In this document: piece after piece, positions 10,243 to 30,095 of the stretch
Layout of the letters: each line of letters opens with the position of its first letter
How positions within the stretch are numbered: the first letter of the stretch is position 1
Translations under genes and position numbers: made by a program
Source: Lota lota
Lineage: Eukaryota; Chordata; Actinopteri; Gadiformes; Lotidae
Direction: 5' to 3'
DNA length: 64,000 nucleotides
Assembly: GCA_026745465.1 (NCBI GenBank)
Contig: JACYXH010000479.1
Coordinates: forward strand, 5,898,011 to 5,962,010
Notes under the pieces: generated by a model
Told to the model about the DNA's origin: nothing
Database searches by the model: none
Seen by the model: the letters and a program-made list of their open reading frames with translations, nothing else

Positions 10243-12436
10243 TTTCCTGTGAGGTTGAACACTACTCTATTTTCCAAATAGAGTGGACAAATCATCTATT
10301 GTATAAACTCTGTGATAACTGTTATCTCCAGGCACACTTAATTTAAGTAGCAGGTGGCCACTCTATTTTTTTCTGGCGTGAATTGTGTTTTTATAGGCAT
10401 AGTGTGTTGCTGCCAAGAACAGGCTCCAAATTGTCTCCCAGAATTAACTTGTATCCAAATTGGCCAGGGTTCTGTGCCATCAAATGACCCTTCTCCCCTC
10501 ACACCGTAACCCATCACAATTGGGTACCGTTGCGGTCATGAAAACTTGAAGCCATTCCCTGGCTTTCTGTCTGCCTTTTCTGTTCTTACTTACTAGCTTG
10601 TTAACCAAAAGATGATTAAATAAATCAAAATAAATCATCATGTCTACCATTTTTTCTCTTTGGTTGGATTGCCGCAACCACCAGAATAGTTATAATTGAC
10701 TATAATTTAAGAGGAAAACAAAACAAATAGCATGCCACTCATTGCAGCATTATTGCTGCTCCTAGGATAAAGCAATTTATAATTTAGTTTCAGTAGATGC
10801 TCACCTGTCAGAATTACTAACAGGCTATTTTAAAACCAACACAATAGTCCTGGTTGAGTTCAGATGTGGCAGCAGCATCACAAACTGTTGCTAGTCAGTC
10901 AGTAAATGCAATTAAGACATATCAGGCTAGGAAAACTCAGCAACTACATAAAACGACTGCATCAAGGTATAACTGACAAATAGAAAGGCAAGGGTAGCAT
11001 CTCTTTGGCAAATAACAAAACAATGAAAATAGAATTAGCAAAGCCCAGTTATTTGCATAATTATCACTCAGATGTTCCACTGAACAAAAACAAGACCGAA
11101 ATACCCCCAGGCAGGAGCTCCACTCCTCTCGACAGCACTGAGCCGATCCCCATCCTCAGTGCCCGCATGTGGGCAGCTGCTGCTGGTTCACTCCACAGCC
11201 AGCAAACGCAGAACCCAGCAGTGCCAACTCCTGAGACCCAAGTCACAAGCCATTTGTCTGAACTGAATGCATGTCAATGCAATGTCTTTAGTGCCAAGTC
11301 TCAAGACAGTTTAAAGTGTAGTAATAAAAAGGTGTTCAAATATTTGAAGTATAGGTAGGTGGGGGAAATATCCCTTCCCAAACAACCCCTGTTTTTTTCC
11401 TACTTGATGGACACTGGTCACTATGCCATATAACTACATTCTACTGTAGGATACTTGCACAATATAAATACAATTGCACAGGATAATTTGTTTATGTATA
11501 AGAATGAATAAATAGCCTATACAACCTGAGAAACTGTTCAGAGCAGCTTGGATGTTGTAAGTGGTGGGTTACGGTGACAAAGACAACAGTGTTGCGTTAT
11601 GCTAATGTTGAAATAGTCTAACTGCCGTTGGAACGAAGAACCATCGGAAGCTCTCCTTGTTACCCTGTGGGTTTAGAAGTCTGTTGCTGAAAGAGCTGCT
11701 TAACGCCCCCGCAGTCTCAAGTAGGGGTTGAGAGGGGTTGTCCACGATTGACGTCAGCCTGGCTAACATCCTCCTCTCACCCACCTTCTCAATGGAATCT
11801 AGAGGGCAGTTCATGACAGAGCTAGCCCTCTAACCAGTTCATGTGTATATTTATTGTCTCTTTTTGATGAGAAACAATGTGTTAAGCAGTATTTCATTTG
11901 TATAATTAAGGAAAGTTAATTGCTTATTACCTTATTTCATTGCATGTATTTAGAATATATTTAAACAATGTCCGCAAACCTTTTGGCAAAGTTACCAAAA
12001 TGAGTTAGTTATTTATTGTAATTGGAAAGTATCTACTGAAAAATATTATTGACCGGATAACAGCTTTCGCAATTACATGCAGATTTGTTTTAACAAATTG
12101 CAGCCTATACATAATTGCGGTCATTAATCTTGCAGGTTTAGTAGAAATGTGATTTATTGTTAATCGAATTTGCTTAAAGCAGTTTATTTTCCAAAATGAT
12201 TTGTTAAAGCAGGTAAGAAATAAGTTGGCACACTTTCGTGCTAGATATTCCTCTGAGAAAATGTATCTGCCATTTTTTATTTATACACGTTTCTATTTTT
12301 TTTGGAAGATAATGTGACTTTGTATTGCTACTGTGTAGTGTTACAATTATTTTTGCATTAATGTATAAACCTTGTGCCTGCCTCTTTCCAATGAACTACT
12401 TTTTAAATATGTCTACTATTTATTTCTTTTCCTCTA

Positions 12437-12438
<2 letters not shown>

Positions 12439-12474
<36 letters not shown>
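12439..12474. repeat. (CA)n microsatellite
   Basis: Perfect CA repeat of about 18 units. Confidence 0.95.
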
Positions 12475-12478
<4 letters not shown>

Positions 12479-12746
12479 TCTCTATAGTTTTCCTGAGAAT
12501 TGATAGTAGCAGAGAATGACTCTGATGAGGGATTCTAAAGGGCATTGAGTCAGGAAATGTCGTGTTTCAAATAGAACCGGAGGGAATCTATGGAAAAATA
12601 AATTCCGAGGGGGAAGAGCAGTTCATGTGACAGAATGAAAAGGGTCCACAGAAGGTGACTGGCTAAATGTGTATGTGCAGTGCTTTTTTAAGTGTTTGTG
12701 TTGCATTTTCATGCTGTGATTGTGTGTTTTTCATGGTTATTTGCAG

Positions 12747-12862
12747 GGCCTTGGGGCAGAGAGCAAGAACCTGTATCCCTTTCTTCTTCCTGTCATCCAG
12801 CTGAGCACTGACGTGTCACAGCCTCCACATGTATACCTCTTGGAGGATGGACTGGAGCTGTG
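12747..12862 (+). CDS. ipo11: importin-11 exon 6 of window (about residues 634-672)
   Basis: Thirty-eight codons, GLGAESKNLYPFLLPVIQLS through HVYLLEDGLEL, plus the first two bases (TG) of a Trp codon. The acceptor is TATTTGCAG and the donor GTAGGA. The Trp is completed by the single G that opens the next exon. The last 27 bases of this exon plus the donor recur twice more in the intron (see the repeat at 12836-13051). Confidence 0.96.
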
Positions 12863-12869
12863 GTAGGAA

Positions 12870-12949
<80 letters not shown>

Positions 12950-13051
12950 CCTCCTGAAGGATGGGATGGCGCTGTGGTAGGGGCAGACACGCACGCACGC
13001 ACGCACACACACACACACACCTTCTGGAGGATGGGTTAGAGCGGTGGTAGG
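12836..13051 (+). repeat. three 32-bp copies of an exon end and its splice donor, separated by (CA)n
   Basis: Copy 1 (12836-12867) is the real end of ipo11 exon 6 with its donor. Copy 2 (12950-12981) and copy 3 (13020-13051) are the same length without gaps and differ from copy 1 at about 5 and 6 positions. All three keep GTGGTAGG, the donor core. They are separated by CA-rich tracts (12872-12946 and 12984-13019). The simplest reading is tandem duplication of the exon end together with the adjoining microsatellite. Confidence 0.85.
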
Positions 13052-16000
13052 GAGACACACACACAAGCACACACACACACACCGATCCACCCCAACCGTG
13101 CAAAAAACAACTCGCAGGAAAAAGGAGATAAAAAGACGCTATTCCCCACCCACGCAAGATAAAAATGATGTGAGATGAAATGTCTACTAAGGCGATGGTG
13201 AAGCCTGCAATATACTGTAGGCCTAACACTAAATACATTAACTACATTCTTGTGTCTGAGCCATGCACGCAGAGGCTACAGTTTTCAACAGCTTTATTCA
13301 ATATTATTTATTTGTTCCTATAACTATATACGCCTCATTTAAAAAGTTAATGAAGGTTGAATCACTGCGCACCACAGTGATTTTAGTTTGACGATATTCA
13401 CTTGCAGAACAAAATAGCTTGTGGAAAAATAACAGATTTATTTCAGATTAGTCTTGTTTAAAAGACTGGACATCAATATTTCACACTATTATATCTCTGA
13501 AATTTATATTCAACGTGGCATTACCATAGTATCAAGGGCAAGGCGTGGCACTTGGGGAAACGTTTGAAGCATTGTCCTGTGTGTAAACAAGACTAATCTG
13601 AAATAAATCTGCTCTCAATGAGCTACTGAGACGAAGAAGCAAAAAAAAAGAAGGGAATATTGAATCTCTAACTGAATTCATCATTGGCATATAATTGCAT
13701 GTGTTCCATCTGTCTGAAACAGACCTCATTTATAAAATGTCTCTTAAACAAATCAGTCACATTTTACATTAGGCTATAATATATACTGAATACAATAAGT
13801 GTGTGTGTGGCGTTGTTTCTTTCACACACCGCCATCACTGCTTGATTCATTATTATTCTTTCGTTCATACAATTATGGTACCAGTGTGGACTTGTCCATC
13901 AAACAAATATGTCCCAAATTTGACAATATAGCCAATAAAACTAACTGTGTTCCAGGGACAATATTCCGGGACATATTCTACCCCCCAAAAGGTCCCTGCT
14001 CGGGGTGTAGTACTTTCCAAAAGTACAGGAACTTTGGGGGTAGGGCTTACAGCGCGAAACATCTGATTGGTTGAGTACTCGAAGTACACTTCGACATGCA
14101 GTAAATCACACACAGTCCTCTTATTGCATCCATAGTGGTAAACTACATTCATATAATTATAGCTTTCTGTTATATGTATTGATCATTCATCTCTATAGCA
14201 GTCAGCGCTACAAGCCAATGTTTACTTGCACTGTCGTACGTGAATTTAGGTTGCTTTTGATAACATGACGGTGTGCAGTTGTATCACAAGAATTTTGTTT
14301 TGGATACCAACTTGCTCCAAAAGAGTTATAGTCTACTTTGAGTTATTGAGCAGGGAAACAACCTCAATAAATAATGTCTCCAAAAAATGGATGCATTAAA
14401 GAATGTACACCCACTTATCATGATCCCTTCATCCGCAAACTGCCATTCGATTCCCTATTTTACACTTGGATTAAAACTCAAACTCCATAATAATTGAACC
14501 CTCTAAACACATAGGATATTTTGATGAAAGTACGGAGCATACACTCTGAATCACTGGCTATATGAGGTTCAGGGTTGAATCCATCTGTCTATTTCACTGC
14601 CGCGATTCTTATTGGAAAATGCCACATGTTTGCGTCGGAACTGATGCAAATAGTTGACACTGTTTTGTTGGTCCAATTTTTCTCTTAGTATTTCTCGCTT
14701 TGTCATGTTCTTTATTCGTTATATGCCTGATGTAAAAGGACCTTAATTTGCTTAACCTTCGTGGGCCTTTAGACTGGAGGAAACGCAGGCAACAAGGGGC
14801 TGAAGGAACCTTTTAGTCCCTTGAAATATACATCCTGGGACTAGACGTTTCGGTTAATTTGGGTGGATACACGGCTTTTCTTGGCTCAAGCTAAACTAAA
14901 CATGAGAGTGAGTAAGTTTAAAGGGAGGGGCAAAGAAACACATTACATTTTTACATTTCGACTAGTCGAAACAGATTTACAGATATCTTTATTTTAATTA
15001 TAGATATCAGTAATTCCTATTTCACTAGTAACAATTACGATTACAGATATCTACAATTGAATTTCCACATGGTGAAAAAGGATTGTAACTAGTGGAAATA
15101 TAATTACCCATTTCAGATATCAACAATTGCATTTCCGATATGTCTGACATATGTGGGCGTCATATTATTTAAATACCACAAAGCCATTGGTCGACGTTTA
15201 ATTACCATATTAGTTTCAGATATGTCGCCCTATTTACCATATTCATTTTGGCTATGTATGTACGTCATTGAAGATATTTACAATTACATTTGACTAGTCA
15301 AAATTCCTTTTTTGATATGTAAAATTCAATTCTGACTAGTTATATAAGGAGAGAAGGAGTTGTAGATATCTTAAATTTAATTGGTACTAGTACGAATATA
15401 GTTTTCACTAGTTACAATTGTATTTCAGATATCTGCAATGGAATTCTAGATATCTGAAATGCAATTTTAGATATCTGAAATCACATTCTTACTAGTTACA
15501 ATTCCAAGCCGACATATCAATAATTTAATTTTGACTAGTCAGAATTGAATTTTTAATATCTGTTATGTAAGAACAATTGTAGATATCTACAATTAACATT
15601 TCCACTAGTAAGAATTGAATTGTAGATATCTACAATTGACATTTCCACTAGTGAGAATTGAATTGTTGATATCAAGAATGAATGTTTTGACTAGTGAGAA
15701 ATTTATTGTAGATATCTTTAATTAGAATTGCTACTAGTCAAAATTGCATTATGGATATGTTGGTTTGGAATTATAACTAGTCAAAAAGGAATTGTTGATA
15801 TCTACAATTGCTAGTACCGCTACTGATTAAATGTTAAAATGGCTTGCCATAGCATAATTGCGAAACGGAATGCGGCACAGTAATCGTTTAATCTTGATTA
15901 TCTTGTTTTCATGATCGTTGGAAGCCATTATCATAATTTAAATTTAAATTAGATTAATCGCACAGCCTTACATCTTCATACTCGCAGAGTAGAGTTCACA

Positions 16001-17072
16001 ACTGCGTGATTCGTTATTAATCATTCTTTAATACAATTATTTAACTAAAAAGTTAGGGTAATTGTTTGGATAGGCTATAATAAGTGTGTTTGTTGTTGTG
16101 TTGGACACACATAGCCATATGCGCAGAGGAGAGTTCTCAACTGGTCATTATTCGTCCTTTCATAGGTTTGTCACTTAATAACTACATATGTACATCTTCC
16201 AAATACAAGATGCAGCATGAGATTAAATAATGTCTAATGTCAGTCTAATGTCTAAGTAAACCGTGTGTTCTCAAAACGAAATAAATGAGCCACACAAATA
16301 AAGAGCAAAAACAATACTTTTATTCAAATATATTTCTGCACACCACTCGCAAATAAAATAAAAGAAGTAAAAATAATAAGCGTGTCCTCGCGGGGTTGGC
16401 CCTCGAGTGTTTTGAACCGTCGAAACACTAGTAGTTGCACGGTGGATGCACTCTCGCACATTTCAGCCCTCGCACGGATGCCTACACACACACAGCCTTT
16501 TTTGTGTAACGTAGGTTTGTGTCTGTGTGCATGAATAATTATGTATATAGTGCATGATTATACATATTTATATGTATGTGCCGTGCATGCTGTCAGCAAA
16601 CCAGGTTTTCTTTTGCGTGTACTGCAAACTGTGAAGCATGAACTTGCATTTCAACAATTTTATAAAGTCATCTGCCACGGATGCACATATTTTTACCATG
16701 ATAACAGTAAGGAGACAAAGGCTGGCCTTGGCCTATGTTAATGAATACAGGCACATATAATGTAATTGCTTTAGGCATACTTGTGATGAAGGTTTCTTGT
16801 TGAAACCTTGAGGGAAATGCAATTTGACATTGAGCTAAATGTTGTACGCGCCTGTCCTTCAAACCGTTGGCATAAATGTTAAAACATCTTCATTCTCTGA
16901 CATGTTTTCAAATCCTTTCCATTCACCTACCTGTTATCTTTCTCCACCTCCTGCTTGCGTTTCCTGGTCCTTCCTTCATATCGCCTTTGTCTCTATTGTC
17001 TCATGCGTTGCCTTTGCTCTTATGTGTCTCATTGCCCCTCCACACTTCTTTCATCTCTTTCTCTCTATGCAG
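12863..17072 (+). other. ipo11: ipo11 intron (4.2 kb) rich in unusual repeats
   Basis: A GT-AG intron from GTAGGA to CTATGCAG. It holds the duplicated donor units and (CA)n (12872-13081), related repeat segments at 13770-13875 and 15960-16170, and the palindrome lattice at 14961-15802. A likely hAT terminal string, GATTAATCGCACAGCCTTA, lies near 15953-15971. No gene was seen. Confidence 0.85.
14961..15802. repeat. degenerate tandem array with ACTAGT and GATATC on a 21-22 bp lattice
   Basis: Fourteen perfect ACTAGT and thirteen perfect GATATC hexamers occur in about 840 bp. Starts include 15365, 15386, 15407, 15428, 15449, 15470 and 15491, each 21 apart. Another run, 15582, 15604, 15625, 15647, 15668, 15690, 15711 and 15733, alternates the two palindromes at 21-22 bp. 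Where a hexamer is missing, a near miss (AATATC, GATATG, CATATC) often sits at the expected lattice point. The basic unit is about 43 bp, two half-units joined by CAATTGAATT-like spacers. No coding capacity was found. I do not recognise the family. Confidence 0.88.
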
Positions 17073-17149
17073 GTTGGTCACGTTGGAGAACAGCCCTGCC
17101 ATCACCCCCGAGCTACTCAGGATTTTCCCCAACATGTCAGCCTTACTTG
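17073..17149 (+). CDS. ipo11: importin-11 exon 7 of window (about residues 673-698)
   Basis: The first base completes the split Trp codon. Twenty-five codons follow (LVTLENSPAITPELLRIFPN then MSALL), and the last G begins a Glu codon. The acceptor is CTATGCAG and the donor GTGAGC. The matching AG opens the next exon 16.9 kb away. Confidence 0.95.
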
Positions 17150-19616
17150 GTGAGCTTGCAGACTGTGTGTGTTTGTTTGTCTTCATGTCTGAAATGTTTC
17201 TTGTGTATATACATACACATGTGTGCTGCTGTGAGTTTGACATATTATGTAATATGTAACATCTTCTGTGTGTTGCCAGATGTAAGCTTTAGGAAGCACC
17301 TAACAGAGTTCCAGTGACTACAAATACCAGAGAATCTTCACCTTATTTAGCACCATTCTCTATTTAGTAAACCATGAGGTCCACAAAGTTTATGGTTATT
17401 TGACCTAACTCCCCTTTCTCTGATGTCAATGTTGCAGATAGTGCAGCACCATTACTGACATACTGAACCAGGGCCAGGGATTTTAAACAGATCAGTCGCT
17501 GCCATTAACTTTAATGTGCCTCCCAGTGACCTTATCAAGCAGACTACTTCTGATTTCATTTTCCTGCTTAGTATGCAAATAAGTATGTACAACACTTCCG
17601 TAACAGCTCTTGTAGCGCCCATGTTCAAAGTCAATTTAGGCAAGTCAAGGTAAGCTCAATATGTTGACAGTATTCTAGTTGTGCTGCTGTGTCCTTCAGA
17701 GAAGCAGGATGCCAAAATGCAGGATTAAGATATTTTATGTGACCTACTAACATAGGTATCGTCCTTTGAATTGGTTTAGTGGTTTCAGAAAGGGAAGTTA
17801 AAAAAGTTGGCACTATAACTAATGAAATCCTGTATTGTCATGTTAAATGTACGCGGTTTATGGAATGGGGTTTGAAAATGCAACCGGAAAAACTTGGGCT
17901 TACATAAATCACAGAAGTTGCTCTAACGTCACTTTAGGGCTGAATAGCTATTTGTCTGTGGATGGTAGCTACCAGTTGCAGGTTAAACGGAAGTTGATGG
18001 ATTATATAAGCGCCTCATCAGTTAAAGACACGCCTTCAAAAGGATATCCCCCAAATCCAAGCCATGCTGAGCTGCCGTACCGAGTCAGACAAAGTCCAGC
18101 CAGGCGAGTATAGTATAATTGAAAAAGCCAATGGTGTATTATGCAAAAGACTGAGCAGTATTATCAAATGATGAAAATGGCGGTACGAATAGAAGGAAGG
18201 ATGAATGAAAATGACAGACAAATGGATGAATTAATCGGAAGGTGCTTCTGTTTAAAGGATGAGGGATGATGGATCTGTGAAAAGACAATCATTGGTCAAA
18301 TGTGTGTCAAGGGACTATCTGTTCATTTTAAAATGCTATTGGCTCTGGATATTTAAAATGTTACAAGCTGCATAAAGTTTATATAGAAATGAATCGATGA
18401 TTTACCGACAGAACTCGAGCGAATGCCTTCACATAACACAACTGGTTCAGATAGTTATTTTTGTAGGTCTTGACCTTCAACCTTGTACCTTCTGTGATGT
18501 CAAACTCTGAAACCCTATACTCTCCTGTTTAGTCCAAAAATACAGCTTGCGTATTTTTTAAATCCCAGGATGTAAATAACCGTTCTCTCCTGTCAAACCT
18601 GTCAACATAACAAGGGTTTGGTCGACGGCTAACCTATTCCATCAGTCTGTCTTGGCCTGCAGAACTTGATGGAAGTGGGCTCATTATATATATTATATAT
18701 TTTCAGACCCAGTATTGTTTTTCCTTGTATAATTAGTTCCTCTTTTTAAGGTCAGCTTGGCATCCAAATATTGTTCAAAATCAATCAGAAATTGTCACGT
18801 CATTTAAAAAAGGAAAGGCTACTGAAGGATTGAAGATATTTGTCTACAACCTATCAGGAGTGTGCACAGGCATCAGTTGGTAAAGAATCAAGTGCTGCTG
18901 CTCTGTATGTTTACTGTATTGCATACAATACGTACGATTTATCTTTAATGCTAGCTGCCAAACATGCAAAGATGCACACGGGCACGTATCTGCGTACATC
19001 CCTAATTAACAAGTGCAGGTGAATCACCCCTTCAGTGCTGTAGAATATTCTGCCTTCTGGAAAATGTGGTCGTTATTTGCAGGTTTTCATGGAATTCCTG
19101 TTGGGTCGATAGTTTAATCTACAGGTAATTGTAGTGAGTGTGGACCATCATGTTCATGTCTCCCTTGGTATTCTGTCATTTGCGAGGTGTTGGGTCTGCC
19201 CCCGCAGATAAAGCGCTCTTCTCCATTACTGCTGAACTGCAGCAATATGTTGTCTAATTGGAATGTCAGAAAGTGATCCTGCTGCTTTGTTCCATGTTAT
19301 AAACATTACATCATAACTCACACTGGTCTTCAGAATCAGAGTTGCTTTTATTACATCTTAACGTACAAGTACGCAAGAGTAAAATTATTAGGCTTGGTTC
19401 CTCAACAGTCACATAGCAACATCAATACAAGATCACAATAACAAAGTAAGTAATAATAAATAATAATAAGTAGCAACATTAATACAAGTGTTCAAGTGGT
19501 AGTGGTAGCAGCCACGGTGGTAGTGCAAAAAAGAAAATGCTGTGCAAAATACAGAACAATATAATGCAGATAATCAAATACTTGGTTGTTGTAGTGTGCG
19601 TGGGGTTGGTTTGGGG

Positions 19617-23292: not shown

Positions 23293-23445
23293 GTTTTAGT
23301 GGGGAAGCAGCCTGGGTTAGTGGTGTAGCAGCCAGGGTTAGTGGTGTCACAGCCAGGGTTAGTGGTGTAACAGCCTGGGTTAGTGGTGTAGCAGCCTGGG
23401 TTAGTGGTGTAGCAGCCAGGGTTAGTGGTGTAGCATCCACTGGTG
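23293..23445 (-). repeat. 21-bp minisatellite encoding a seven-residue repeat
   Basis: About seven tandem 21-bp units with core GGGTTAGTGGTGTAGCAGCC. Because 21 is a multiple of three, the minus strand stays open and reads TPLTQAA or TPLTLAV heptads. The surrounding minus-strand frame (23192-23494, 100 codons) starts MVAMKIDKQNAAAQQTPPVD and ends KNPEH. Differences between units are substitutions that spare the frame. No protein family was recognised. Confidence 0.9.
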
Positions 23446-24499: not shown

Positions 24500-25756
24500 C
24501 AGTATCTCACAAAAGTGAGTACACCCCTCATATTTTTGTAAATATTTGAGTATATCCTTTCATGTGACAACACTGAAGAAATGACACTTTGCTAAAGTAG
24601 TGAGTGTACAGCTTGTATAACAGTGTAAATTTGCTGTCCCCTCAAAATAACTCAACACACAGCCATTAATGTCTAAACCGCTGGCAACAAAAGTGAGTAC
24701 ACCCCTAAGTGAAAATGTCCAAATTGGGCCCAAAGTGTCAATATTTTGTGTGGCCACCATCATTTTCCAGCACTGCCTTAACCCTCTTGGGCATGGAGTT
24801 CACCAGAGCTTCACAGGTTGCCACTGGAGTCCTCTTCCACTCCTCCATGACGACATCACGGAGCTGGTGGATGTTAGAGACCATGCACTTCTCCACCTTC
24901 CGTTTGAGGATGCCCCACAGATGCTCAATAGGGTTTAGGTCTGGAGACATGCTTGGCCAGTCCATCACCTTTACCCTCAGCTTCTTTAGCAAGGCAGTTG
25001 TCGTCTTGGAGGTGTGTTTGGGATCGTTATCATGTTGGAATACTGCCCTGCGGCCCAGTCTCCGAAGGGAGCGGATCATGCTCTGCTTCAGTATGTCACA
25101 GTACATGTTGGCATTCATGGTTCCCTCAATGAACTGTAGCTCCCCAGTGCCGGCAGCACTCATGCAGCCCCAGACCATGACACTCCCACCACCATGCTTG
25201 ACTGTAGGCAAGACACACTTGTCTTTGTACTCCTCACCTGGTTGCCGCCACACACGCTTGACACCATCTGAATCAAATACGTTTATCTTGGTCTTGATCT
25301 TCTTAAAGCCCAGGCCATCTTTATGTAGAGCAACAATTATTTTTTTCAGATCCTCAGAGAGTTCTTTGTGATGAGGTGCCATGTTGAACTTCCAGTGACC
25401 AGTATGAGGGAGTGTGAGAGCGATGAGACCAAATTTAACACACCTGCTCCCCATTCACACCTGAGACCTTGTAACACTAACGAGTCACATGACACCGGGG
25501 AGGGAAAATGGCAAATTGGGCCCAATTTGGACATTTTCACTTAGGGTTGTACTCACTTTTGTTGCCAGTGATTTAGACATTAATGGCTGTGTGTTGAGTT
25601 ATTTTGAGGGGACATCAAATTTACACTGTTATACAAGCTGTACACTCACTATTTTACATTGTAGCAAAGTGTAATTTCTTCAGTGTTGTCACATGAAAAG
25701 ATATACTCAAATATTTACAAAAATGTGAGAGGTGTACTCACTTTTGTGAGATACTG
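24500..25756 (-). mobile_element. Tc1/mariner element with complete ends and an internally deleted transposase
   Basis: Flanked by TA (24498-24499 and 25757-25758), the duplicated Tc1 target. Ends are inverted and nearly identical: CAGTATCTCACAAAAGTGAG at the left, its complement at the right. Each terminal repeat is about 210-240 bp and has a second, inner copy of the CAAAAGTGAGTACACCCCT motif (about 24690 and, inverted, about 25541-25559). This is the IR/DR architecture of Sleeping-Beauty-type fish elements. The coding region on the minus strand is shortened, so at 1257 bp the element is smaller than the roughly 1.6 kb usual for the group. It is probably mobilisable only in trans. Confidence 0.95.
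24738..25382 (-). pseudogene. Tc1-type transposase with an in-frame internal deletion (214 aa)
   Basis: Tc1 transposases bind the terminal repeats through paired helix-turn-helix motifs and cut DNA with a DD34E triad. This copy starts MAPHHKELSEDLKKIIVALH, the start of the first helix-turn-helix domain. After KDGLGFKKI it jumps to KTKINVFDSDGVKRVWRQPG in the catalytic domain. About 120-130 codons are missing: the rest of the DNA-binding region, the nuclear localisation signal and the first catalytic Asp (WSDE). The second Asp (HDNDPKHTS) and the glutamate block (SPDLNPIEHLW) remain, and the frame is open to GGHTKY. An upstream in-frame Met at 25454 exists, but homology starts at 25382. It cannot be catalytically active. 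Confidence 0.93.
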
Positions 25757-26387: not shown

Positions 26388-27107
26388 TACGTCCCCCTTA
26401 CTGAAAGAAATTTCCCCATTTCCATGCACACAAATAGATTACAACAAAACAGCAAAAGAAAACAACAAATATTGAAAATAAATAAACAAATCAAAATCAA
26501 CAAAGAAATAATAATAATATGGCCAAGTAAACCCAACACACACAGCCCATGCATTAGGCAACTCTGTAACATAACATGTCAGATTCTGTGTGGTACCCCG
26601 AACATACCTTCTTTAAAAATAACAAAGTGTAAGTGCATAACAGCAGTTCACAACATATCCACACGCTACCCTTCATGAACACAGCAGCAGTAACACATGA
26701 GCATGTATACAAGGGCCAGTCAGCCCGTCACATATATAGCGTTCAGGGGGTTGCACTGACCTCCCAGCTCGGGAGAACACAGTTGGAGCTAGTGCATGCT
26801 CAGGGGAATCAACTGAGCCAGCATCCGGTTCCAGATCAAAGTCCATGGCCATGTTACAACATGACGAGCCTGCAGGGCTACCGGGGGAGGCTGAATTGTC
26901 CTGTAATTAGGCAGATGGGGAAAACGTGAAAAGAGTCCATAATGGGCCCTCCAAAGGAAAGGCCACAGGTAGGTTGTAGCACCGCAACCGGTCATAATGA
27001 ACGGTTTGGAGCAGGGCCTCATCCCCAAAAGGGCTCCTAACCTTGTCGTCTCTGTCCAGTCATTGCTGTACCAAGTAAGGCCCCTTCCAGTGGGGAGCCA
27101 GCTTAAG

Positions 27108-27917
27108 TCATCTCTCTGTGGGATCGTTAAGCCACACAAGATCCCCAACCCCATAAGGGTTGTGCCTTAGCCTGGTGTCATAGCAAGTCTTTTGTCTTTC
27201 ACTCGCCGCAAGGCTGTTGTCCCTCGTCCGACCAAATGCTGTATACAAACACTTGAGGAGAAAACTAGCAAAGTCCCCCGGGGTGCCACGCACCGGGTCG
27301 CCCTGCACCAGCGGACCCAGTACGGCGTCCACAGGTGTCCGAGCCTCCCTGCCATGCGTGAGGAAGTAAGGTGTGAACCCTTTATTAGAATGGACACTGG
27401 TGTTGTATGCAAACTCGACCTGCAACAGAAAATAGTCCCACTCCCCCTCACATGACAGGAGGGTCTTTGCCAATTGATCAATAAGTGTCCATTTAAACCA
27501 TTCTACCATACCATCAGACTTCGGATTGTATGGGGTGGTGTGTGTCTTCTTCATGCCCAACATCCTGCACAAATATCTCACCACGTCTGATTTGAATTGC
27601 CTACCCATGTCTGTGTGCAGCGTTTCCATTACCCCATGTTCCAGGATGTAGTCCTTAAAAAGACACTCTGCGACAGAGGTGGCTTTCTGGTCAGGGATGG
27701 CAAACAGATTAACGAATTTAGCGAAATAGTCCTCAACAACCAAAACATAGCGGTTGCCTTTAGACGTAACTGGCAACTCTAGTATGTCGGCTGCGACACG
27801 TTGGAAAGGTCTCTCTGCCAGTGAGGTTCCCAAAGGGGCATGGTGTCTGGGTACTGGGGACTTCCTCCTCTGGCAGGCGTAACACTGATCACACGATGTC
27901 CGAATGTCACTGTGCAT
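27108..27917 (-). pseudogene. fossil Ty3-type integrase piece
   Basis: Minus-strand similarity to a retroelement integrase. It has a CxxC string (CDQCYACQRRKSPVPRH) of the zinc-binding domain, then the RNase H-fold core with AADILELPV, HTDMGRQFKSD and the NPKSDGMVE region. It belongs to the Ty3-type fossil at 26187-30407. Confidence 0.88.
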
Positions 27918-28003
27918 AAAAGGCTAATAACACACACTTCTTGCGCGCGCTAAGACCTGTTCATAGGCCAGGTGAGCTGTCAGCGGGGCACCATGCAGGT
28001 GTC

Positions 28004-29272
28004 TCAAGACCTCCGGGACCAAGGCAGCAGGAACAACAATTTGTGTAGATTGCCCTGCATCTCACAGCAAAACAAAAAAGTTAACCGGGGAAACTCGTGC
28101 CATAGTCTCCTCACACCCTGACTAGCATTCTTCAACCTCCACCTAGGGGGTCTCTGACCACTTTCCAGCCAGGACAGAACTTGCGCAATGTCTGCATCCT
28201 TCTGCTGGAGTTCCCTGACATTGGAGCCATCATGTGACAGGGTGTAGATTAAAGCATGGTCTGTAGGAGCCTGGAGTTCAGGAGAACAGAGGCTGGAACT
28301 GAGGCCTGCAGCAGGGGTTGTGGTAGGAGTGTCAACGGCGCACACAGCACTGGGGTTATCGTCCATAACCGTTTGAGTACCCGTGTTCATCAGAGTGCAG
28401 ATGGCACCAGGGGCATAACAGTCCATCTGCACTGCATAGGGGTCAAGCCTGCGTGAAAGAGCATCCACATTAGTGTGCTGGGCCCCACTGTTGTGCACAA
28501 TCACCCAGTCGTATGGGTCCAGCTCCAGAGCCCAACGGCTACGACGCCTCGTTCTGTCATTGTCAAAAGGGACTCGTCGTAGGCCCAACAATGGCCGGTG
28601 ATCCGTGACAATAGTGAACGGAAGAAGGCCCAAGTAGTGCCTAAAACTACGAACAGCCCACACTATTACCCACAACTCCCTGTCGTACATAGACCGCCGT
28701 CGTTCAGTCGCCGTGAGGGAGTTACTAGCGTAGGACACCACCTTCTCCGGTCCATCCACTTCTTGTGCCAAAACTCCCCCACAGCGGTTTGCGATGTGTC
28801 TGTGTATAACGTGAAACGTTGGGTGAAATCTGGGTGATAGGTTCATCACAAAGGGCGTCTCGTAAGAACTCAAACGCCTCCTGGTAGTCCACTGTCCATC
28901 GAAACGGTCCTTTCCCGTGAGACAATTGAGGGGGACGGCACGCTGGGCAAAACCCCTCACAAATCTCCTGTAATAAGAGCAGAGGCCTAGAAACGCACGG
29001 ACCTCTGTAGCGGATCGTGGGTCGGGCCAGGTTTTCACCTTGTCTGTGTTTTGGGGATCTGGGCGAAGCCCCACAGCTGACCCGACGTGACCAAGGAAGA
29101 CCACGTGATCGCGGGCCAGATGGCACTTCTTGGCATTCAATCGTAACCCAGCTGCTCCAATCCGGGTGAAGACCTCCCCCAGAACAGAGAGGTGGGCCTC
29201 AAACGATCTGCTGTAGATTAGTATATCGTCAAGATACACCATGCAAATGTGCCATGGCAGCCCTCTTAACAC
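28004..29272 (-). pseudogene. fossil Ty3-type reverse transcriptase/RNase H piece
   Basis: Minus-strand similarity to Ty3 polymerase. It shows the active-site string YLDDILIYS, the thumb/connection region around FLGLCSYYRRFVRGFAQRA, and the RNase H region with YDRELWVIVWAVRSFRHYL and VTDHRPL, ending near HTNVDALSRR. It is part of the fossil at 26187-30407. Confidence 0.92.
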
Positions 29273-29494
29273 CAGCTTAAGAATGGCCCCTCAAGCGGTC
29301 GTCCATCTGGAACTCCCTGGGGGTAGACCTGCAGCCAAACCCGCCACAGTCACAACGACAAGCACGCCGTTGATCTCGTTGCACCCCTGAGTCATGCAGA
29401 CGAGCCCCTGGAAAGGGTGAACTCCGTCTACCATTCTCAGTCCCATGGCTACGTGTTCTTAAGTCCCTCACTACAGTCTGCAAATTGTCCACCT

Positions 29495-30095
29495 TTAAAG
29501 TGAGATGATGGATGAGCTTCTCCGTCGCATTGGCATTATAGTCCACGACAGTAGCCGGTGGCAAATCGAGAGTGGCCACCATGGCAGGATGTGGAGGAGA
29601 GTAGGTTGAGCCAGACGTGCAGCGCGGTCATAATCAGGAAACGCTTCAGCTACGAGCCTGGAAATGTCGGCCGCATAAACCTGCAAACACTCGTTCCCAT
29701 GGCGGGGCCACGCAGACACGCATGTCTGGAAAAATAGGAACTGTTTCTGCCCAAATGCCTCATTTATCTCACTTATCCTTCATACGTTCGTAATCACATT
29801 GTACATCCGCAGGAAAACTGTCTCACAGCAAGAAAGCTGCCCCGTCAAGCCTGGTCGGGAGAATTTTCACCATAGTAGCCGCGTAGCTCTCACCTATCGT
29901 CTGAGCGCGCACTGCGGCCTCGAACTGTTTGATCCACGTAGCAAACGGCTTCTGACCGTCGCCCCGAAACGGCAGCGGGAGCTCCACTCTAATACTACTC
30001 ACGGACCCAGTCCTTGAAGCAGTACGCTTGTAACAATCGTCTCCGCGTCGCTCTCCATATTGTGCCACATCAGTCCTGCTAACACGATGCTCCAA
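29495..30095 (-). pseudogene. fossil Ty3-type gag-like region
   Basis: Minus-strand frames upstream of the polymerase piece read LPLPFRGDGQKPFATWIKQF, then VYAADISRLVAEAFPDYD. This composition and placement are typical of the gag region of Ty3-type elements. It is assigned mainly by position within the element. Confidence 0.65.

Follow-up and report, generated by a model that had tools for sequence, protein, structure and literature searches.

The 64,000-nucleotide stretch of DNA analysed here (the window; G000:C479:5898011-5962010 of a 575-Mb genome) contains a damaged, left-truncated copy of an interspersed, non-autonomous DNA transposon with terminal inverted repeats (TIRs), which has hundreds of genomic copies and is filled with regularly spaced six-base palindromes. 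We consider it probable (roughly 0.6) that this is a decayed MITE-like cut-and-paste element whose palindromes are putative dimer sites aiding transposition, and whose ancestors were longer and carried genes. The window copy has the following features:

14951-15851, + strand: one copy of the interspersed lattice transposon, truncated on the left; the 39 genomic copies that were fetched lose homology at these limits.
14920-14950, no strand: left breakpoint, where unrelated flank joins the element at ...acattacattt/TTACATTTCG.
14961-15802, no strand: lattice of 27 exact ACTAGT/GATATC palindromes, spaced by 21-22 bp in most cases.
15575-15758, + strand: 43-bp double unit (one GATATC and one ACTAGT palindrome) in 4.3 tandem copies, from Tandem Repeats Finder.
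15822-15851, - strand: right TIR of 30 bp, starting TATGGCAAGCCATTTT, its outer 23 bases differing from the consensus at one position.

The initial annotation reported 27 palindromes of just two kinds in about 840 bp, and the exact count agrees: 14 ACTAGT and 13 GATATC hexamers lie in the 842 bp of the lattice, and 18 more lie in the other 63.1 kb of the window, with at most three per 842 bp. Eighteen of the 26 gaps are 21 or 22 bp, and 22 are of that size or a multiple of it; the phase concentration exceeded that of all 300 random placements, and the proposed 21-22 bp lattice is thus confirmed. That the two kinds often alternate is more weakly borne out, the kind changing at 19 of 26 steps versus 13.5 in shuffles (p = 0.024).

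A genome search with 14940-15830 gave 203 matches from the best 40 of 338 candidates, and the best places outside the window among these were 77-89% identical and mostly near full length. Thirty-nine copies, the best matches to the window copy, were fetched with their flanks; homology across them starts sharply at window position 14951 and stops near 15851. Intact copies extend leftwards to a left TIR, and the window copy is therefore missing approximately the first 175 bp of the element, including that TIR; no left TIR was found in 12001-19000 at up to six mismatches in 23 bases. Short similarity (ttacattt) is present at its left junction. Because the left end is lost, the window copy's own target site duplication (TSD) cannot be assessed. 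Its right TIR is the genome-scan match C479:5913846-5913861.

The terminal inverted repeat is TATGGCAAGCCCTTTTAACATTTAATCAGT, and the two consensus ends are identical over 30 of 30 bp. Both ends are present in the 31 of 39 fetched copies that were used for alignment. Of 32 copies that have both ends, 13 are flanked by an exact 7-bp TSD and 18 by one with no more than one mismatch, the other 14 having none at that threshold; shuffled flank pairs gave a mean of 0.0 exact matches. The target sites of the 18 are varied; immediately beyond the duplication, A or T is found on the left in 16 and on the right in all 18. The outer 20-mer of the TIR occurs at 412 places in the genome at no more than one mismatch, versus none for the reversed control, and the search for further arrays suggested at the outset thus found hundreds of TIR ends as well as dispersed lattice copies. 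In three loci (L039, L043, and L046) extra TIR ends lie inside or touch lattice sequence, a pattern that insertion of one lattice element into another would give.

The 31 copies measure 898-1544 bp (median 1140), and their longest ORFs encode only 28-70 amino acids (67 in the consensus). Coding capacity is thus absent, and the many copies are homogeneous, being 93-97% identical to the consensus. The element is a non-autonomous TIR transposon; MITEs are usually shorter than about 800 bp, and because the median length exceeds that bound we call it MITE-like rather than a plain MITE. Its tandem 21/43-bp structure would also suit a satellite, or a single-locus array under selection for some local function, but that reading, highly improbable in our view, is refuted by dispersed copies with TSDs (the best 40 of 338 candidates were scored): the 39 fetched copies share ends, TIRs, and TSDs, and the rate of private mutation in the hexamers, described below, is not lower than in the spacers. 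Satellite DNA forms long head-to-tail arrays without element ends, whereas here dispersed copies have two defined ends.

The consensus was derived from an alignment of the 31 copies whose ends lie 800-1700 bp apart, together with the window copy; eight copies (L026, L027, L031, L035, L043, L045, L046, and L047) were left out, and the 31 come from those most similar to the window copy, so that the sample does not include older copies. It is 1110 bp long with 29% GC, and contains 39 palindromes between positions 38 and 1061: 17 ACTAGT, 18 GATATC, and four ACATGT. The last is a third kind at lattice points, and the claim of two kinds only has to be widened accordingly. The lattice occupies nearly the whole element, and thus, of the suggestion that the array is a subterminal set of binding sites in a transposon, the transposon stands on its TIRs, 7-bp TSDs, and hundreds of ends, but the array is not only subterminal. 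Thirty-three of the 38 consensus gaps are 21 or 22 bp, and the rest are 27, 28, 43, 43, and 177 bp; the longest holds decayed lattice points such as GATATG. The proposal that all palindromes share one helix face is true only locally: the regular gaps average 21.2 bp and, with the breaks of 27, 28, and 177 bp, the phase drifts along the lattice.

Conservation extends beyond the hexamer. At ±6.5 and ±7.5 from the hexamer center the bases are complementary in 38 of the 39 consensus units, whereas those at ±3.5 to ±5.5 are complementary in only 15-19 of 39, where composition alone predicts a fraction of about 0.30. The unit is therefore an 18-bp bipartite palindrome, ATTnnn[ACTAGT/GATATC/ACATGT]nnnAAT, in which the symmetric arms are conserved and the trinucleotide between arm and hexamer is variable; this arrangement suggests a dimer motif with two half-sites, of which it would be expected.

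Some of the change in array size is in whole lattice steps: of 43 distinct indels of 12-120 bp, 16 are lattice multiples (10% expected) and 27 are not, and at one place 12 of the 31 copies carry an insertion of 107-237 bp, that in L014 being a repeat of consensus 863-1110. The window copy also folds far better as a single strand than its shuffles do (z = -13). These observations favor the main rival to a binding-site reading, namely that the lattice is a passive by-product in which copies of a 21-bp palindromic unit built up within the transposon through slippage or unequal exchange, hairpin- or exchange-prone units copying each other with no binding protein involved. We regard this as a real possibility, though an unlikely one, as the similarity between units outside the hexamer is 0.56 at one step and 0.51-0.60 over steps 2-19, and is thus flat with distance; the lattice of the consensus is therefore not the trace of recent local duplication. 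Near-fixation of arms and hexamers around a varying trinucleotide also counts against passive multiplication, as do two related loci (described below) that keep the core and the spacing with other arms.

Variants in the 31 aligned copies were divided into those private to a single copy, which are mostly post-insertion, and those shared by at least two, which are mostly inherited from source elements; the comparison used two well-aligned zones and excluded CpG. The initial annotation held that hexamers survive better than spacers and named equal decay as the observation that would count against this. Pooled mismatches to the consensus amount to 3.1% in hexamers and 4.1% in spacers, but the two classes of variant differ. 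Shared variants are about three-fold fewer in hexamers (36, or 0.73%) than in spacers (180, or 2.2%), whereas private variants affect 118 of 4918 bases in hexamers (2.40%) and 152 of 8179 in spacers (1.86%; p = 0.036). Better survival of the hexamers is thus true of shared variants and untrue of private ones, and the latter lend no support to the initial suggestion of selection on this locus or of a protein repeatedly binding here.

Counting columns gave the same result for shared variants, which are found in 13 of 168 hexamer columns versus 56 of 277 spacer columns (p = 4e-4); with decayed lattice points added, the figures are 16 of 192 versus 76 of 449 in zone 30-835 (p = 0.004) and 24 of 252 versus 115 of 592 over the whole element (p = 4e-4), although hexamers were defined on the consensus, which favors conserved ones, and columns were treated as independent, which they are not. 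The private rate was significantly higher in hexamers than in spacers (p = 0.004 to 0.036), which weighs against a binding-site reading. When the hexamer class was slid along the alignment, shared variants were fewest and private ones most frequent at offset 0; shared variants rose gradually on both sides, and the protected zone is thus not cleanly the hexamer.

Shared variants avoid the hexamers and private ones do not; the constraint therefore acted on the transposing lineage and not on resident copies, and the palindromes seem to have been kept while the element moved and not after it had landed. This sparing of hexamers in variants inherited through transposition also makes the transposon the best supported of the options first put forward. 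We infer from the timing that the palindromes are probably cis sites for transposition, bound by a hypothetical protein; alternatively, recombination or conversion among units could have spared palindromes in the source lineage. In repeat arrays generally, setting private variants beside inherited ones can show whether a feature was needed for movement or is of use to the host.

The sparing before insertion would also fit a host factor that is needed during transposition, and subterminal sites can be inhibitory, as in piggyBat (PMC11707139). A host repressor, enhancer, or chromatin protein might thus bind the array in register and be exploited by the element or silence it. We think this quite unlikely: resident copies show no hexamer protection and hence no lasting host use, and a relative with changed arms and a kept core is more easily explained by coevolution with the element's own enzyme.

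Under the preferred reading, in which the palindromes aid transposition, a DNA-binding domain acting as a homodimer, in the simplest case the transposase's own, would dock on each 18-bp unit. A spacing close to two turns of the helix might allow dimers to bind cooperatively along the element, and the array may raise the local concentration of transposase and help the two ends to pair. A single strict site would be expected to show fewer than three kinds of hexamer at lattice points, and 39 palindromes filling the element are excessive, both of which count against binding sites. If binding sites they are, 39 similar dimer sites in a 1.1-kb consensus constitute a natural extreme of subterminal repeats.

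Ends and target sites bear on class membership, and the element is best left out of P, Dada, hAT, Helentron, and Foldback alike. hAT elements make 8-bp TSDs, whereas an 8-bp duplication is exact in 0 of 32 copies here, versus 13 of 32 for 7 bp. Helitrons and Helentrons have neither TIR nor TSD, and the lattice element has both. The piggyBac target is TTAA, and piggyBac thus has no 7-bp TSD; neither does it have a lattice. Foldback elements have very long TIRs, but clear TIR identity ends at 30 bp in the lattice consensus. The 7-bp TSD agrees with the 7 or 8 bp of the P superfamily (P, 1360, and Galileo) and with the 6-7 bp reported for Dada (PMC8869645). The TSD alone fits the P superfamily: its terminal motif is given as 5'-YARNG in PMC2820524, the terminal TATGG of the lattice element has T at the R position, and no P-type transposase was found linked to it. 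Dada-U6 and Dada-U1 are described as having no terminal inverted repeats (PMC3706591), whereas the lattice element has a perfect TIR of 30 bp. Dada elements insert into multicopy small RNA genes; the window itself gave no tRNA or Rfam match.

Galileo of Drosophila (P superfamily) is the closest tested precedent, by analogy: it is a TIR transposon with a 7- or 8-bp TSD (PMC4168063) and many non-autonomous copies, and its THAP domain has an 18-bp footprint and additional binding sites within the tandem repeats of the long TIRs (PMC3688188), the internally repeated ends holding repeated 18-bp transposase sites. Its TIRs are long (~0.76 kb in a nearly complete D. willistoni copy and 1.2 kb in Galileo-G) versus 30 bp here, and it has a P-type transposase, whereas none was found linked to the lattice element, which is filled by 39 palindromes. 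In maize Ac/Ds, of the hAT superfamily, non-autonomous elements also occur and the Ac transposase binds arrays of a hexamer cooperatively (PMC3260210), but the TSD is 8 bp and the hexamer, AAACGG, is non-palindromic and lies within the terminal 200 bp. The STR1-STR2 subterminal repeat of Hermes, also hAT, is quasi-palindromic and is bound cooperatively by two BED domains (PMC10368747), although its sites are concentrated near the tips.

Both ends of piggyBac contain 19-bp palindromic sequences that are bound by the two C-terminal domains of the dimer (PMC11707139). Among fish, zebrafish P and medaka Izanagi (1.3 kb, with a 27-bp TIR) are P-like elements with non-autonomous copies, but they have an 8-bp TSD, and no palindrome lattice is described in the parts of those papers that were available (PMC7776569, PMC2820524). 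Oyster Helentron elements are likewise dispersed and non-autonomous and contain tandem repeats in satellite-like arrays (PMC7492417); they are rolling-circle elements, whereas the lattice element has TIRs and 7-bp TSDs.

A pattern search that excluded known interiors gave 26 places versus one for the control, and some of these are other elements starting TATGGCAAGCC. Two related loci, L052 and L053, have the same TIR start and an ACTAGT lattice. In L052 (C719:1210055) the ACTAGT units have other arms (AATAGTTACTAGTAACTATT), and the lattice takes up approximately 550 bp on one side and 280 bp on the other of a middle part that lacks it; this locus has a degenerate right TIR and no visible TSD. 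Together, 29 of 33 exact gaps in the two loci are near multiples of 21.3, and the ACTAGT core and its spacing have thus outlasted the arms. With one-mismatch hexamers included, phase tests in this family, where a 7-bp sub-repeat adds extra near-matches, did not reach significance (p = 0.06 to 0.66); this counts against the simple picture.

The lattice element probably descends from longer relatives in which a lattice lay beside genes, at least one of them encoding a HECT E3-ligase-like protein. A 3.2-kb relative (C367:2157997-2161220) has the same TIR variant at both ends, one end being 95% identical to the left end of the MITE-like element, and the 1241 bp of its interior that were read contain apparent minus-strand exons beside sequence matching consensus 444-502. 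The first-exon peptide of this gene matches 19 places in 11 loci, and in eight of these loci (two on G000:C24 and the others on C91, C199, C556, C693, C721, and C831) the match starts exactly 669 bp inside the R-end TIR, variant ...GGTAATATCAAT. The eight loci were rejected as young autonomous copies: in every one the match is in two pieces in different frames, no opposite ends are present among the TIR matches listed, and five lie at low contig coordinates (<106 kb). They may reflect recent transposition or, equally possibly, segmental duplication.

Locus L047 (C446) has an R end followed by 33 palindromes, with 25 of 32 gaps of 21 or 22 bp. Beyond these the sequence is as in the C367 relative (97% over 857 bp), and further on there is a HECT match (PF00632, E = 1.2e-9), seen only in L047, that also matches UBE3A in PDB (E = 9e-6). 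A stop interrupts the first exon of L047, and the far end of the locus lies beyond the stretch that was read. First- and second-exon peptides had no Pfam match, and of the L047 gene pieces only the HECT piece scored, a viral-glycoprotein match at E = 0.27 being taken as noise. The unique middle of the lattice element looks like a relic of the region before this HECT-like gene, which may be the transposon's own or captured. The gene may be G2E3-like; the HECT domain is the one domain tested. In a study of the fish Cottus, G2E3, a ubiquitin ligase, is among the blastx matches of unclassified repeats (PMC5638112), and a HECT-like gene beside the lattice might tie such repetitive ubiquitin-ligase-like sequences to a mobile element.

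A bolder proposal, which we put forward tentatively and think rather unlikely, the more so given the broken frames at the eight loci, is that these elements form an undescribed group of fish transposons in which a lattice of dimer-binding palindromes, spaced by two helical turns throughout the element, is the recognition signal on which a transposase or accessory factor spreads cooperatively and long members have the HECT-like gene beside it, perhaps acting on host or transposition proteins. The open-access literature, as far as its indexed text was available, gave no transposon paper for fragments of the TIR or unit sequence and no title or abstract start describing such a lattice; this does not mean that the family is unpublished, and a consensus may already exist in Repbase or Dfam.

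No transposase was found in the parts that were read of the longer relatives, which share an end and a gene, and several other candidates were rejected. The only PF21787 (P-element/THAP9-type) match in the genome, among three candidates, is a degenerate P-type relic (L050; G000:C692:748271-748558) that has stop codons and no TIR within 1.5 kb; the PF21789 profile gave no match in the genome, nor any among 14 controls. The middle 1.4 kb of C479:11646342-11649155 contains no recognized gene and shows what by eye may be a ~150-bp repeat. The 11.4 kb between TIRs at C41:32738-44183 is a huge, near-perfect inverted repeat with retrovirus-like integrase and hAT-like ORFs (by eye). Over L048 and L049 (G000:C41:32600-44400) this 11.7-kb inverted repeat has 2339-bp arms that match at 99.96% and other parts that match at 99%; the arms contain 349-bp tandem repeats and flank the retrovirus-like integrase ORF. 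The structure is either a real palindrome or an assembly artefact.

The 5.75-kb C704:1862343-1868094 was set aside as an autonomous partner, being a lattice element with a nested Ty3/gypsy-like retrotransposon (by eye), the open frame of which has 1349 codons (L051; G000:C704:1862250-1868200). Likewise, the ~1.3-kb insert in L035 is not autonomous content, but a Tc1-like transposon (by eye) nested in a lattice GATATC, with an open frame of 373 codons.

Other repeats are present in the window, and its Tc1-like, gypsy-like, and hAT-like frames, taken with the abundant CA repeats, point to a teleost fish. A 21-bp tandem repeat, TTAGTGGTGTAGCAGCCAGGG, at 23296-23439 (6.9 copies, 91% matches) is by eye unlike the lattice unit. 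On the minus strand there are a 238-amino-acid open frame at 24738-25454 that resembles a Tc1-like transposase and, at 26789-29627, gypsy-like retrotransposon fragments (both by eye), the region being GC-rich (0.54 at 28001-30000). The window also contains a hAT-like frame (by eye) and many CA repeats.
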